Virus record (IMG/VR): IMGVR_UViG_3300020467_000058
Span: 1-22,286 of that record
DNA length: 22,286 bases
Source of the DNA: a virus
Direction: 5' to 3' (one strand)
In this document: piece after piece, positions 3,330-22,014 of the stretch
Layout: each line of letters opens with the position of its first letter
How positions within the stretch are numbered: the first letter of the stretch is position 1
Notes under the pieces: model-generated
Database searches by the model: none
What the model was told of the DNA's origin: nothing
Seen by the model: only the letters and a program-made list of their open reading frames with translations
Program-made: the position numbers and the translations under genes

Positions 3330-3737
3330 CTACGAATAGAGGAATTTAGCAAAAGGTATACCATCTAGATCGGTTAATTCTGAAAAGGTTATTTCATAAA
3401 GACCACCAATTACTTCATTCCAAGTATATTGACGATATGTATTCCAATGGTAATTAACACCACGAAATCCTTTCTCATAAACATCAGTAACTGCAACCAT
3501 TGGATGCATATCATATCTTAGATTGGGTGTTTTAGCTCTATAGAAGAACACATAAAACTTTCCTTCTTGTGGAGTTTTTCCACCTTCTGATAATGATTCT
3601 ATTATTTTCATCATTAAATCATCTGCACTCTCAGTTCCAACTAATTCATTAAGTATGTGAGATACTCTATTTCTTTCTTCTCTTGATTCTTTGAGTTTTC
3701 TTTTTTGACTTACTAGAAACGATTCTCTTCTTGCCAT
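3330..3737 (-). CDS. Conserved hypothetical protein, co-transcribed with gp4
   Basis: I do not recognise a named function. The 135-residue protein starts with a basic, charged helix (MARRESFLVSQKRKLKESREERNR) followed by a helical stretch to about residue 52. A beta-rich part then has the striking segments GKFYVFFYRAKTP, LRYDMHPMVAVTDVY and FRGVNYHW. An 'F-Y.P...YDxfPmv...GF.G.N.Hy' pattern is, from memory, seen in small proteins of other tailed phages, but I cannot name the family. Its ATG overlaps the gp4 stop by one base (TAATG), indicating translational coupling with the head-completion nuclease. Expression is late by position. A DNA-packaging or head-completion accessory role would fit the context but is a guess. 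Confidence 0.8.
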   Translation of the reverse strand: MARRESFLVSQKRKLKESREERNRVSHILNELVGTESADDLMMKIIESLSEGGKTPQEGKFYVFFYRAKTPNLRYDMHPMVAVTDVYEKGFRGVNYHWNTYRQYTWNEVIGGLYEITFSELTDLDGIPFAKFLYS

Positions 3738-4174
3738 TATTTAATTCCCAATTCTTTCTCTGTAATCACCTTAAATTCCCATTGACGATCTTTACAAAAG
3801 GATGTTGCTGCTTGCCATTTTGCTTGATTTTTTGCATATTCATATGCCTCATACAAATAACCTTTTGTTTGTCTTTTTGGTTTTTTGGGTGGACTACATT
3901 GTTTTAATGGTTTTACTTCTATGATATATTTTTTTATTGTCCCATTATTTTCTTTAACTTTCATATAAAAATCTGGAAAATATCTATGGAATTTATTATC
4001 TACAGGAGATTTGTATGGTAATGCTATTTCTTCACTTGCCCATTCTAAGACATTTTGATTATTATCACAGTAAACCATGAACTTTCGTTCCCATAATGAT
4101 CTAAAAACTATCTCTGTCGGATCACCTTTATACTTTTTAGGGTGAGATGGTCGATATTTTCCTTTATAAGCCAT
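3737..4174 (-). CDS. gp4: Head completion nuclease-like protein gp4
   Basis: This 145-residue protein is the T4 gp4 (gp50) head-completion protein, needed after DNA packaging for filled heads to join tails. The N-terminal basic motif YKGKYRPSHPKKYKGDPT and the FRSLWERKFMVYCD segment are typical. The core has a TnsA/PD-(D/E)xK-like nuclease arrangement: E29 in WER, D68 in FPDFY, and E86-V-K88 in IIEVKP, all spaced as expected for a metal-binding active site. The conserved SPVDNKFHRYFPDF segment sits in the middle. It is the first gene of the leftward unit, transcribed from a late promoter in the divergent region that starts directly at its ATG. No Shine-Dalgarno is evident before the start. 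Confidence 0.88.
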   Translation of the reverse strand: MAYKGKYRPSHPKKYKGDPTEIVFRSLWERKFMVYCDNNQNVLEWASEEIALPYKSPVDNKFHRYFPDFYMKVKENNGTIKKYIIEVKPLKQCSPPKKPKRQTKGYLYEAYEYAKNQAKWQAATSFCKDRQWEFKVITEKELGIK

Positions 4175-16899: not shown

Positions 16900-18204
16900 A
16901 TGGCAATAGCACCAGTAAATAAATTTCTTAATATTGCTGTTCCTGTAGCACCAGGAGTGCAGAAACTTTATGAGGTTCCTACTGGAACTTCTTCTTTGTT
17001 ATTGTATGCACAAGTATCTAATGTTGCAATAGGAGATACATATCCAACAGTTACATTTTTTCAGAGAAGAGAGCAGAGAAGTACGGGAAATACTAGAGAT
17101 GTACGGGTAATAAAAGAAGCAGAGATACCACCAAATGATGCTTTAATATTGGTGGATGGTAGAATAGTATTAGAAAAGACTCCATTAGTAGTTGATTCAG
17201 TATATCTTCAAGGAACTCAGGTTGGTGTTACAACTATTAGTAATGTTGTTTATGATGAACCAACAGGAATAGCGACTGTTACTACAATGGCAGATCATGG
17301 ATTTTCTGCTACTGAAAAAATTACTTTAGCTGGTATATATTTTGATTGTGGATATAAAGCAACTCCTGGTAATGCAACAACATATGATCCTACTACTGGT
17401 CTTCTTGTATTAGATATTGGTGCTCATCCACTTAAAGTTGGGCAGAGTGTTAAGATTTCTGATGATGCAATGCAATTTACTTGTACTCATGGTTCTGGTA
17501 ATAAGAGTTATCCAAGATCAACAGACCCTGCTAGTGGTAAATCTTTGATTATTCAGGCAATTACTTCAACTACTATTACAGTTCAGGTTCTTGAAACTAT
17601 ACCTTCTACTAACCAAACTGCTCATACATTCGTAAGTGGTAGTGGTGTTGCGAATTCAATTGAAAATACTTATACTGGGATAACTACAAATATATTTCCT
17701 GATCCACAACAGTCATATATTGTAGACACTGTTCCTACTAGTACTAGTTTTTCTGTAGAAGTTGGTAGATCTTCAGGAAATATACATAATTATCAACCAG
17801 CAGTACATAAATTTGTAAGAGCAAGACCAGAAACTGTAGAAGTTGTTGATGGTAGTGGTAGTGGACATGCTAATGGTACAAAATTCCCATGTTGGAATGC
17901 TGAATATAATCCTACTAGTGGAGAATTAGTATTAGAGATAGGTCCTAACACTCTCACGAATAGTAATACGGTAAAGATATTAGATAATACAATGTTCTTT
18001 ACCTGTTCTATGGATAATCATTATAGTGAGCATTCTTATCCAAGAGAATCAGATCCTGCAGGGGATGGAACTACTTTACCTATGGCAGTTGCTTCTACCA
18101 ATAAATCTATTAGAGTTAATGTTGGTAGTACTAATGCTGGTGGTTATGCTGCTCCATTACAGATGGAATTTATCGCAAGTGTGTTAGAAAATAGTAATGT
18201 CTAA
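16900..18204 (+). CDS. Virion structural protein with internally duplicated domain
   Basis: A 434-residue protein, most likely a fibre or baseplate-peripheral component by context; I cannot name it. Residues 1-125 form a beta-rich N-terminal domain (NIAVPVAPGVQKLYEVPTGT, SSLLLYAQVSNVA, VTFFQRREQRS, ILVDGRIVLEKTPLVVDSVY) that looks like an attachment domain. A homologous pair of domains follows. Copy 1 at about residues 158-237 has TYDPTTGLLVLDIGAHPL, FTCTHGSGNKSYPRSTDPAS. Copy 2 at about 333-408 has EYNPTSGELVLEIGPNTL, FTCSMDNHYSEHSYPRESDP. Both keep a Cys and a SYPR.(S/T)DP motif that I associate with cyanophage tail proteins. The ATG is two bases after the fibre stop; the 3' end overlaps the collagen-like gene by 8 nt. 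Confidence 0.78.
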   Translation: MAIAPVNKFLNIAVPVAPGVQKLYEVPTGTSSLLLYAQVSNVAIGDTYPTVTFFQRREQRSTGNTRDVRVIKEAEIPPNDALILVDGRIVLEKTPLVVDSVYLQGTQVGVTTISNVVYDEPTGIATVTTMADHGFSATEKITLAGIYFDCGYKATPGNATTYDPTTGLLVLDIGAHPLKVGQSVKISDDAMQFTCTHGSGNKSYPRSTDPASGKSLIIQAITSTTITVQVLETIPSTNQTAHTFVSGSGVANSIENTYTGITTNIFPDPQQSYIVDTVPTSTSFSVEVGRSSGNIHNYQPAVHKFVRARPETVEVVDGSGSGHANGTKFPCWNAEYNPTSGELVLEIGPNTLTNSNTVKILDNTMFFTCSMDNHYSEHSYPRESDPAGDGTTLPMAVASTNKSIRVNVGSTNAGGYAAPLQMEFIASVLENSNV

Positions 18205-21200
18205 CAAATATATTAGCGGAAGGGTTAAAAAAACCCCACAAGATAGATTAAAAGGTGATAGGTATAAGTATCTTGGATTGGGTGAAGCTGAACCTAATTT
18301 AGGTGATCCTTTATATCATCCCGAAAATAATAATCCACCTACAGGACAGAAATATCAATTAATATCTGTTGATGGTGATCCAGGTAGAAGATATTGGATT
18401 CCCACTGGTGGTGGTTTCCAAGAAGGATCTATCAGCATTTATGATGAAAGTGTTCTTGTAGGTGTTGCTAAAAGTATAACCGAACTAGATTTTAAGGGAG
18501 CTTCTGTAACTGCTTTTGTTGATGTTCAGAATCCTTCAGGTCATCCAGGTATTGCTGCGACAATAACAGTTATACCTACTACCATATCAGATAATGCACC
18601 AACAGGACCACTTGAAGGTGAGTTATGGTGGGAAAGTGATGTTGAGAGGATGAAAATTTATAAGGATGGACAATGGATTGAAGCTGTTAGTGGAGAGAAG
18701 GGTCAGAAGGGTGAACTTGGTAACAAGGGTAATAAAGGAGAAGTAGGTTTAACTGGACAAAAAGGAGAACCAGGTCAAAAGGGTCAGAAAGGTGATTTTG
18801 TAAAAGGTGATAAAGGTGAAGTAGGTACTAAAGGTCAGAAGGGTCAGAAGGGTCAGAAAGGTGATGTAGAAGAGAAAGGTAATAAGGGTGAAAAGGGAGA
18901 AAAAGGTGAAAAAGGACAAAAGGGTGAAAAAGGACAAAAAGGACAAAAAGGACAAATTGGTGATGTAACTGAAAAAGGTAATAAAGGAGAAAAGGGTCAG
19001 AAAGGAACTAAGGGTCAGAAAGGACAGAAAGGATCCAAAGGTCAGAAGGGTGAAGTTGGTGAAAAAGGTGCGGTAGACGAAAAAGGTAACAAGGGAGAAA
19101 AAGGAGAAAAGGGAGAAAAAGGTCAAAAAGGTCAAAAAGGTACTAAAGGACAGAAGGGGCAGAAAGGTCAGAAAGGTCAGGAAGGATATGTTAATGCTAA
19201 AGGTGCTAAGGGAGAAAAGGGCCAAAAAGGCGAGAAGGGTGAAAAGGGTCAGAAAGGTGAAAAGGGTCAGAAAGGTCAAAAAGGAGAGAAGGGTAATAAA
19301 GGTGGTAAAGGTGAGATACTAGGAAAAGGTAATAAGGGTGAAAAGGGACAGAAAGGTGAAAAAGGACAAAAGGGTCAGAAGGGCGAAAAAGGTCAGAAGG
19401 GTCAGAAGGGTCAAATTGGTGATGTAGAGGAAAAAGGTAATAAGGGTCAAAAGGGGCAAAAAGGACAGAAGGGTGAATTTAAAGGACAAAAAGGTGAGGT
19501 AGGAGAAAAGGGACAGAAAGGTCAGGAAGTTAAAGGTGATAAGGGTGAACCTAGTCAGGTTAAAGGACAAAAAGGAGAAAAAGGTAATAAGGGTCAGAAA
19601 GGTGAATCTGTAAAAGGACAGAAAGGAGAAGCACAAAAGGGTCAGAAAGGTGAACTAAATGATAAAGGTGAAAAAGGACAGAAGGGTCAGAAGGGGCAAA
19701 AAGGGGAGAAAGGTGTAAAAGGTCAAAAAGGTATCAGAGGAGATAGAACTTTTAACATAACAAACAGTGGATCTGGTTCTTACTGTGTCGATAGTGTATG
19801 TAATAATCCAACAATAAAGTTAATAAGAGGATTTAGTTATACTTTTACTGTAAGTGCAAGTGGACATCCTTTCTGGATTAAGACTTCTCAAACTACTGGA
19901 ACTGGTAATCAATATAATACTGGTATAACAGGTAATGGTACTCAGTCAGGAACTATGACTTGGACTGTTGCAGCCGACGCACCAAGTACTCTTTATTATA
20001 TTTGTCAATATCATAGTTCTATGAAAGGAACTATTGAAATTAGTGATTTCGGACCAAAAGGACAGAAAGGAGAAGAAGGGCAAAAAGGTCAAAAGGGTGA
20101 AAAAGGTTCAATAGGATTAACTGGTAAAGGTGGTGATAAAGGACAGAAAGGTGAATCTGTAAAAGGACAGAAGGGTGAAGTAGCACAGAAAGGACAAAAA
20201 GGTGAGGTAGGAGAAAAGGGTCAGAAAGGACAAAAAGGTGCTATAGATGAGAAGGGTAATAAGGGTGAAAAAGGTAATAAGGGTCAGAAGGGTGAATATA
20301 AAGGACAGAAAGGTGAAGGGGGTGATAAAGGACAGAAAGGTGAGGATAACTCTACCAAGGGTGATAAGGGTGAACCTAGTCAGGTTAAAGGGCAAAAAGG
20401 TGAATCTGTAAAAGGTGATAAGGGTGAACCTAGTGATGTTAAAGGGCAAAAAGGTGAACCTTCAGAGGAAAAGGGTCAGAAAGGTGAATCTGTAAAAGGA
20501 CAGAAGGGTGAACCTAATGATGAAAAAGGACAGAAAGGTGAATCTGTAAAGGGTCAAAAAGGAGAGGGTGATAAAGGACAGAAGGGTGAACCTAGTGATG
20601 TTAAAGGGCAAAAAGGTGAACCTGGTCAAGATAATTCCACTAAAGGACAAAAAGGTGCACCAGGTCAAGACAACTCCACTAAAGGAAGTAAAGGAGAGCC
20701 AGGTCAAGACAACTCCACTAAAGGAAATAAAGGAGAACCTGGTCAAGATAATTCCACTAAAGGAAATAAAGGTCAGAAGGGTGGATCTGGTAGTAGTATA
20801 AAAGGACAAAAAGGACAGAAAGGACCTAAAGGACAGAAGGGTGGAGCATCAAGTTCATCCTCTACTCAAGGAATGGATTGTGCCACATATACTGGTTCTA
20901 CCAATACTTACCATGATGCAAATGTTAGCACTTATAATAGATGGGTTGTTCTAATTACTGGTCCTGGTGGTGGAGGAGGAGATGGTAGTTCCTCTGGTGC
21001 TGGCGGCGGTGGCGGCGGTGGCGGTACTGCACTTCGTGAATATAGCTATGCTCAAATGAGTCAGAGTTATTATGGAGTACAAGGTAGATGTAGAGTCTTT
21101 ATTGGTAATGGTGGATCTGCTGGAACTGGTGGTGGTAATGGAAACTTTGGTGGTATAGCAGAATTTGTTGGTGCTAATGGAACTGCATCAGTTGCTTATA

Positions 21201-21472
21201 ATGCTAATGGTGGTACTGGTGGTAATAGTGGTAACTTAGTTGCAGGTGGTGGAGGTGCTGCTTGTTATGGTGACATCTCTACAATGGGTGAAGAAGGTGG
21301 AGCTGGTGCTTACGGTGCATCTGGACGATGCGGTAGTTCTTATTGGGGTGCTTTGCAGTTCAGTCCTGGTAGTGGTGGTAGAGGTGGTGTTGCAGGAAGT
21401 ACTGGTACTGCCCAAGGTGGTAATTCAGGTGCTATAATAATATTCTCGTTCTCTAAAGGTAATCCAACATGA
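18197..21472 (+). CDS. Collagen-like tail fibre with embedded cupredoxin domain and glycine-rich tip
   Basis: A 1091-residue fibre in five parts. Residues 1-165: head domain with GELWWESDVERMKIYKDGQW, a motif I associate with phage fibre attachment regions. Residues 166-515: collagen-like Gly-X-Y repeats, dominated by GQK and GEK, with regular short interruptions (DVEEK, ESVK, EPSQVK). Residues 516-618: a cupredoxin-like domain with ligands H557 (SGHPFWIKT), C603, H606 and M609 (YYICQYHSSMKGTIEI). Residues 619-883: second collagen block, ending with four GEPGQDNSTKGNK-type units. Residues 892-1091: a glycine-rich domain with runs of Gly (GAGGGGGGGG) resembling polyglycine-II receptor-binding tips such as S16 gp38. 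Proline is sparse and lysine in the Y position is abundant. The start overlaps the previous stop (ATGTCTAA) and the stop overlaps the next start (ATGA). Predicted to form a trimeric adhesion fibre. Confidence 0.85.
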   Translation: MSNKYISGRVKKTPQDRLKGDRYKYLGLGEAEPNLGDPLYHPENNNPPTGQKYQLISVDGDPGRRYWIPTGGGFQEGSISIYDESVLVGVAKSITELDFKGASVTAFVDVQNPSGHPGIAATITVIPTTISDNAPTGPLEGELWWESDVERMKIYKDGQWIEAVSGEKGQKGELGNKGNKGEVGLTGQKGEPGQKGQKGDFVKGDKGEVGTKGQKGQKGQKGDVEEKGNKGEKGEKGEKGQKGEKGQKGQKGQIGDVTEKGNKGEKGQKGTKGQKGQKGSKGQKGEVGEKGAVDEKGNKGEKGEKGEKGQKGQKGTKGQKGQKGQKGQEGYVNAKGAKGEKGQKGEKGEKGQKGEKGQKGQKGEKGNKGGKGEILGKGNKGEKGQKGEKGQKGQKGEKGQKGQKGQIGDVEEKGNKGQKGQKGQKGEFKGQKGEVGEKGQKGQEVKGDKGEPSQVKGQKGEKGNKGQKGESVKGQKGEAQKGQKGELNDKGEKGQKGQKGQKGEKGVKGQKGIRGDRTFNITNSGSGSYCVDSVCNNPTIKLIRGFSYTFTVSASGHPFWIKTSQTTGTGNQYNTGITGNGTQSGTMTWTVAADAPSTLYYICQYHSSMKGTIEISDFGPKGQKGEEGQKGQKGEKGSIGLTGKGGDKGQKGESVKGQKGEVAQKGQKGEVGEKGQKGQKGAIDEKGNKGEKGNKGQKGEYKGQKGEGGDKGQKGEDNSTKGDKGEPSQVKGQKGESVKGDKGEPSDVKGQKGEPSEEKGQKGESVKGQKGEPNDEKGQKGESVKGQKGEGDKGQKGEPSDVKGQKGEPGQDNSTKGQKGAPGQDNSTKGSKGEPGQDNSTKGNKGEPGQDNSTKGNKGQKGGSGSSIKGQKGQKGPKGQKGGASSSSSTQGMDCATYTGSTNTYHDANVSTYNRWVVLITGPGGGGGDGSSSGAGGGGGGGGTALREYSYAQMSQSYYGVQGRCRVFIGNGGSAGTGGGNGNFGGIAEFVGANGTASVAYNANGGTGGNSGNLVAGGGGAACYGDISTMGEEGGAGAYGASGRCGSSYWGALQFSPGSGGRGGVAGSTGTAQGGNSGAIIIFSFSKGNPT
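18692..19738 (+). repeat. Collagen-like block 1 (Gly-X-Lys)
   Basis: About 349 codons in a low-complexity run of GGN-CAR/GAR-AAR triplets. Gly occurs every third residue, with Lys in nearly every Y position. Interruptions of 4-7 residues between glycines recur every few dozen residues. The opposite strand shows long open frames rich in Phe, Leu and Thr that are shadows of this bias. Confidence 0.92.
19742..20050 (+). other. Cupredoxin-like domain coding segment inside the fibre gene
   Basis: The 103-codon segment between the collagen blocks has no Gly-X-Y pattern. It reads as a beta-sandwich: FNITNSGSGSYCVDSVCNNP, IKLIRGFSYTFTVSASGHPF, WTVAADAPSTLYYICQYHS, SMKGTIEI. His557, Cys603, His606 and Met609 correspond to the type-1 copper ligands. 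C-x2-H-x2-M is the spacing of amicyanin. Two further Cys (528 and 533) could form a disulfide. Confidence 0.8.
20051..20845 (+). repeat. Collagen-like block 2 (Gly-X-Lys)
   Basis: About 265 codons of Gly-X-Lys repeats, more often interrupted than block 1 by ESVK, EPSDVK and EPGQDNSTK. It ends at the change to a serine-rich linker (ASSSSSTQG) leading to the glycine-rich tip. Confidence 0.9.
20615..20770 (+). repeat. Four 39-bp tandem repeats (GEPGQDNSTKGNK units)
   Basis: Units start at 20615, 20654, 20693 and 20732. Each encodes 13 residues, G(E/A)PGQDNSTKG(Q/S/N)K. Because 13 is not a multiple of 3, each unit shifts the Gly register by one residue, which makes this a distinctive interruption. 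Confidence 0.92.
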
Positions 21473-22014
21473 GTTTTATTTCTGACGATTTACTTGCAAA
21501 ATTAGGTGGTATCACTGGAATGGTCAATATGGCTAATTCTGAGATTGAAAAAAAGACTACTGAATTTCTAGAAGATCAAAGAGTAGGTATAGGAACTGAA
21601 TTTATAGACTATGCTTATATTGATCCTTCTACAAATTTAGTGACAACTACTTGGACTGGTTATGCAGATACAACTAAAAACCCACCACCTTTACATGATT
21701 GGCTTGAAGTTGGAATTGGTAGTACATATAGAGGAAGTAAAAATGAATGTCTAGTGCAAGCTGGATGGACATACACTACGGCATCTGGATTCTATAATGG
21801 AAATCTTCCTGCAGAACTAGCCGATAATTGGGTTGGTTTAAGAAAAGTAAGAGATCAAAAACTATTAGATAGTGATTGGACTCAAGCTATAGCAGATTCT
21901 CCATTATCATCAGATAAAAAGACCGAGTGGGCAACTTACAGGCAACAATTAAGAGATTTCCCTGCTACATTAAGTTCTCCTCAGAATCCTACTTGGCCAA
22001 CACCACCTTCTTGA
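21469..22014 (+). CDS. Tail-assembly-chaperone-like (Phage_tail_APC type) protein
   Basis: A 181-residue protein. Its C-terminal third matches by eye the pattern of the Phage_tail_APC family (Pfam PF16778 by memory): LRKVRDQKLLDSDWTQAIAD, SPLSSDKKTEWATYRQQLRD, then PATLSSPQNPTWPTPPS. The signature is 'R..RD.LL..sDWTQ..DsPLs...k..Wa.YRQ.LRD.p......P.WPt.P'. These proteins often end fibre modules in tailed phages, and some are thought to aid fibre assembly. The N-terminal part (VGIGTEFIDYAYIDPSTNLV, PPLHDWLEVGIGSTYRGS) is unrecognised and beta-rich. It is translationally coupled to the collagen fibre gene by an ATGA overlap, so a role with that fibre is likely. Its TGA stop lies inside the -35 box of the next promoter. 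Confidence 0.78.
   Translation: MSFISDDLLAKLGGITGMVNMANSEIEKKTTEFLEDQRVGIGTEFIDYAYIDPSTNLVTTTWTGYADTTKNPPPLHDWLEVGIGSTYRGSKNECLVQAGWTYTTASGFYNGNLPAELADNWVGLRKVRDQKLLDSDWTQAIADSPLSSDKKTEWATYRQQLRDFPATLSSPQNPTWPTPPS

Follow-up and report, generated by a model that had tools for sequence, protein, structure and literature searches.

The tail fibre encoded by a virus in IMG/VR record IMGVR_UViG_3300020467_000058 raises the question whether a beta-rich segment in its shaft is a cupredoxin domain with a type-1 copper site, as the initial annotation had proposed, and what such a domain would do on a virion. The window, i.e. the whole stretch of 22,286 nucleotides that was analysed (positions 1 to 22,286 of the record), comes from a P-SSM2-related cyanophage of the T4 type. 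A quarter of its length is covered by nucleotide matches at ~79% identity, and it also encodes gp32, gp53, tail tube, and gp5-like genes.

The collagen fibre and its genomic setting

Collagen (PF01391) is the sole Pfam match in the 1091-aa fibre (E 9.7e-32), and its N-terminal part has hits to tail fiber families in PHROG (E 3.6e-10). Long GXY blocks and the adjoining Phage_tail_APC gene, which overlaps the fibre stop, place the protein among the collagen-like phage fibres (Table 1). GXY triplets on both sides bear out the proposal that the domain is inserted between two collagen blocks. Its description as the only non-collagenous part of the shaft is valid for folded domains, since the collagen blocks themselves contain short interruptions. 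Residues 1–165 are presumably the virion attachment end. The glycine-rich C-terminus, which had no match in Pfam and PHROG searches, is presumably the receptor-contact tip and is reminiscent of the glycine-rich receptor-binding tips of T-even phages.

Table 1. Positions of the fibre gene, its parts, the candidate copper ligands, and the adjoining chaperone gene in the window.
Feature	Position	Strand	Basis or remark
Collagen-type tail fibre gene, 1091 aa	18197..21472	+	ORF; Pfam Collagen; PHROG
N-terminal non-collagen region, residues 1–165	18197..18691	+	phrog_2097 tail fiber match, residues 1–94
Collagen block 1, residues 166–515	18692..19741	+	~92 GXY triplets, mostly GQK and GEK
Cupredoxin domain, residues 516–618	19742..20050	+	AlphaFold2; PDB matches all cupredoxins
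C530-x4-C535 pair (YCVDSVC)	19784..19801	+	in the window and P-SSM2-type copies
H557, N-terminal His ligand (GHPF)	19865..19867	+	aligned with amicyanin H53
C603, thiolate ligand	20003..20005	+	aligned with amicyanin C92
H606, second His ligand	20012..20014	+	aligned with amicyanin H95
M609, axial Met ligand	20021..20023	+	aligned with amicyanin M98
Collagen block 2, residues 619–886 (about)	20051..20854	+	~50 GXY triplets; frequent interruptions
Glycine-rich fibre C-terminus	20864..21469	+	sequence
Tail fibre assembly chaperone gene	21469..22014	+	PF16778 Phage_tail_APC, E 3.8e-16; PHROG tail fiber / tail fiber assembly

Elsewhere in the window, this phage with collagen fibres encodes a 2OG-Fe(II) oxygenase (PF13640; 2732–3364, minus strand); in P-SSM2, piuC adjoins the fibre genes. 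A protein encoded at 3737–4174 (minus strand) has a TnsA-like endonuclease N-terminal domain (PF08722, E 2.7e-25), and the counterpart region in P-SSM2 includes a gene annotated as head completion protein.

Fold, ligands, and family placement of the inserted domain

AlphaFold2, supplied with a 72-sequence alignment from viral and genome contigs, modelled residues 516–618 with eight strands (pLDDT 95.6), in which C603 ends strand 7, and H606 and M609 are in the loop ahead of strand 8. In a Foldseek search of the PDB, every match at E ≤ 0.001 was a cupredoxin-fold chain, comprising rusticyanin, AcoP, a CuA/amicyanin-loop chimera, nitrite reductases, multicopper oxidases, and plastocyanin, and no non-cupredoxin family was among the matches listed near the top of the fold searches. 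The best VIA-align 2 match was rusticyanin (2cal, Z 10.8, rmsd 2.1 over 94 residues). There the end of the model, residue 103, meets chain residue 155, and judging from the alignment ranges M609 would coincide with the axial Met148 of rusticyanin if the last strand is ungapped. On the predicted structure, residues 516–618 belong to the cupredoxin fold superfamily, whose mark is a Greek-key beta sandwich, and form the eight-stranded sandwich that had been anticipated; a different predicted fold, the main outcome named in advance as speaking against the proposal, did not appear.

All four proposed ligands are exactly where the initial annotation had put them, H557 within SGHPF and C603, H606, and M609 within YYICQYHSSMKG. 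Alignment with hhalign to a profile of amicyanin and plastocyanin paired them one to one with the type-1 ligands (E 1.8e-4, probability 49), which supports the claim of a full ligand set. The amicyanin row of the profile, the one compared with the PDB, was identical to 1aac, and its CTPHPFM loop has the same C-x2-H-x2-M spacing as the window domain, also as claimed. The type-1 pattern His...Cys-x(n)-His-x(n)-Met is thus present at equivalent positions, as judged from this alignment and from the joint retention of ligands described below. The additional cysteine pair C530-x4-C535 is restricted to a P-SSM2-like subgroup and missing from most other copies; it may form a disulfide.

Profile searches set the domain apart from named copper protein families. 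It had no match to PF00127 (Copper-bind), missed all curated Pfam cut-offs, and had no NCBIfam match, including to amicyanin (TIGR02657); without a PF00127 profile match, it stands outside that family. Three of its 72 relatives match PF00127 at E ≤ 0.01, an archaeal member (L199) passes the curated cut-off (24.8 vs 21.2 bits), and family members weakly match plastocyanin, amicyanin, and rusticyanin models. Weak similarity to the At5g54830-like plant domain PF25489 was seen in 15 of the 72 members (best E 1.6e-5) and suggests, at the level of profiles, a wider uncurated cupredoxin-like family.

With amicyanin, plastocyanin, and rusticyanin the window domain shares the fold and the ligand order His, Cys, His, Met. 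These proteins are free periplasmic or lumenal electron carriers, whereas the window domain is fused into a virion fibre and has no known redox partner. In amicyanin and plastocyanin the first ligand His is followed by Asn (HN), in the window domain by Pro (HP), and its spectral properties should therefore not be assumed to be the same. Fold matches also connect it with the cupredoxin domains of multicopper oxidases and nitrite reductases: it shares the HP of the HPxHxHG motif with multicopper oxidases (6vox alignment), and its C-terminal half resembles nitrite reductase 9cck (YICTLHPWMKGTI; YIC..H..MKGTI). Unlike multicopper oxidases, it is a single domain without a trinuclear site, and its HPFWIKT and YICQYH segments are without type-2/type-3 histidines. 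Membership of that family was rejected since the combination of HPxHxHG and HCH motifs is missing.

Among phage proteins, positions 308–411 of phrog_677, the cyanophage baseplate wedge tail fiber connector gp9, match the window domain with E 8.2e-27 and carry the same ligands. The connector has a T4_gp9_10 N-terminal domain, in contrast to the collagen fibre of the window, which shows Collagen only in Pfam and hence was not assigned to the T4 gp9 connectors. In S-SSM5, gp9 (L239:629-1855) consists of T4_gp9_10_N and a C-terminal cupredoxin domain, and the gene that follows also holds divergent copies of the domain; we know of no C-terminal cupredoxin domain in T4 gp9 itself. Closest in make-up is the tail fibre-like protein PSSM2_028 of P-SSM2/P-SSM5, which contains collagen and a domain 81–82% identical, but it is shorter, at 559 aa, and bears no annotation beyond phage tail fiber-like.

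Distribution of the module and joint retention of its ligands

Similar motifs had been said to recur in marine phage fibres, which proved true and understated. Full-length tblastn recovered homologues in 339 of 50,697 phage records, nearly all from Synechococcus and Prochlorococcus phages, and 349 phage records were recovered with the gp9 domain as query. The domain is most often located at the C-terminal end of gp9, which connects baseplate and tail fibre; it also occurs in proximal long tail fibre subunits, collagen fibres, S8 peptidases (subtilisins), podovirus proteins, and an Actinomycetia phage. P-SSM2 alone has four copies, and 50 of 111 distinct viral-contig copies are flanked by collagen on both sides. 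In ACG-2014j and S-H9-1 (L002, L006), a phage subtilisin carries the domain fused at its C-terminal end, and in S-SCSM2R (L005) a small stand-alone copy with the annotation PetE immediately follows a gene for an S8 peptidase.

A motif-based genome scan (40 loci) found cellular relatives in Alphaproteobacteria, Flavobacteria, Acidobacteria, and archaea. The acidobacterial relative (159 aa) is 59% identical and has a signal-like N-terminus; others are flavobacterial CHRD lipoprotein-like proteins and haloarchaeal and other euryarchaeal proteins. From their sequences, the cellular relatives look exported. A search of open-licence papers, in which absence is not proof, found no cupredoxin or copper domain in phage fibres. 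The fold is old and the type-1 site known, and what appears undescribed in the literature searched is their wide use as a virion fibre and baseplate module.

Whether the ligands are maintained as a set was assessed on 46 distinct phage copies from full-length tblastn and genome-wide profile matches, for which the motif was not required. All four ligands are present in 36 of them, none in eight, and a single one in two, while no copy has two or three. Shuffling of alignment columns, which preserves column make-up and ignores relatedness among copies, gave an expectation of ~26 partial copies and never reached zero in 20,000 shuffles; clustering at 60% and 45% identity (33 or 15 sequences) did not change the result. 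The profile does favour ligand-bearing copies, a bias that would conceal copies lacking the ligands to a greater extent than those with some of them. Conservation seen in the motif-based scans was excluded as evidence, because C, H, and M were already required by the pattern used for searching. Such joint retention or loss of the ligands is what selection on a metal site would predict. Homology, fold, and joint ligand retention together rule out a chance motif.

These data also bear on the alternative that only the structure is reused, the domain being a stable beta-sandwich spacer, like Ig-like virion domains, with the ligands as relics and metal optional. It is favoured by the presence of the domain in many unrelated virion proteins and by the ligand-free copies that this virus group also has, chiefly within very long ORFs; about a fifth of the sampled phage copies are ligand-free yet recognisable, so the module can work without metal. 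Relics, however, decay residue by residue, whereas copies with two or three ligands are lacking in the sample; the C-x2-H-x2-M spacing is also kept in 204 of 218 copies, a set that is partly motif-selected. We therefore regard reuse of the fold alone as unlikely. Ligand-free cupredoxin-like copies were noted at L229, L230, L231, L232, L233, and L117:865-1203, several of them within ORFs of great length, up to 6268 aa.

Proposed role of the site and alternative readings

We consider it probable that the domain is a cupredoxin with a full type-1 ligand set and an amicyanin-type short loop, which forms a bead joining two collagen helices of a trimeric fibre and belongs to a family of mobile modules across cyanophage host-contact proteins. 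The computed fold, ligand set, homology, joint retention or loss of ligands, and virion-type context are best read as a type-1-like copper-binding cupredoxin module on host-recognition fibres, with putative copper binding, redox activity, and role. The fibre is probably trimeric and would therefore carry three copies of the domain. The site may bind copper. Since the cytoplasm in which the protein is synthesised is poor in copper, the metal would probably be acquired once the cell has lysed. Metal binding would clamp together the two loops that bear the ligands, giving a rigid bead, which could cap and register the collagen helices, and the bead would be exposed at the contact between fibre and host or, in gp9, between fibre and baseplate.

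Should copper be bound, ocean viruses of a highly abundant group would bear type-1 centres on the apparatus with which they recognise hosts; extrapolated from three-fold fibres and gp9, the number per particle would probably be in the dozens. Copper would then join the known iron story of phage tails, and the C-terminal domain of cyanophage gp9 would have its first chemical function. Blue colour, an EPR signal, and copper-dependent adsorption are the measurable predictions. Even metal-free, the domain merits a named family: it recurs widely, and its present annotation is either hypothetical or taken from the protein to which it is fused.

Instead of stabilising the fibre, its copper or another metal might act as a lure or nutrient that attracts or exploits a metal-uptake receptor of the host. 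Carriage of the domain by host-contact proteins agrees with this, as does a published precedent: T4 gp37 and marine phage tail fibres have metal sites, with iron-binding HxH motifs and a Trojan Horse idea (PMC11705849). That iron is held between the trimer chains, unlike the predicted type-1-like copper site within the window domain. The window domain is also mid-shaft in the collagen fibre and not at its tip. Type-1 copper sites are usually buried and saturated and hence are poor ligand presenters, and we judge a lure to be quite improbable.

A broader proposal appears very improbable to us: the cyanophage virion would be a copper protein whose blue, redox-active centres, located in the fibres and at the gp9 joint, respond at the host surface to light, redox state, or copper and thereby switch adsorption or triggering. 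As a redox or light gate, the copper centre might change its oxidation state upon contact with the host or under illumination, shift the conformation of fibre or baseplate, and so aid the light-dependent adsorption of some cyanophages. For P-HM2, poor adsorption in the dark has been inferred, and for P-SSP7 no difference (PMC7112961). The former has ligand-bearing copies and the latter none, and gp9 is located at the fibre/baseplate joint, in line with such a gate. The comparison, however, involves two phages from different families. P-HM1 has the same kinds of copies as P-HM2; because both carry them, light-dependent adsorption fails to discriminate and was dropped as an explanation. S-PM2, a light-dependent phage, gave only weak matches without the full ligand set. 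Cupredoxins moreover change shape little with redox state, which leaves a redox or light gate extremely doubtful.

Capture of host plastocyanin (petE) as an auxiliary metabolic gene fused to the fibre has next to no chance of being correct and was rejected: many cyanophages carry petE (PMC3037559) and one relative is annotated PetE, but neither Pfam nor NCBIfam yields a plastocyanin match for the window domain, the 40 loci of the motif-based genome scan include no cyanobacteria, and the domain is fused to structural proteins.

In a Bacteroidetes MAG, a 1006-aa protein (L189:3026-6046) has collagen repeats immediately ahead of this cupredoxin domain; the locus could be prophage or contaminating phage DNA.
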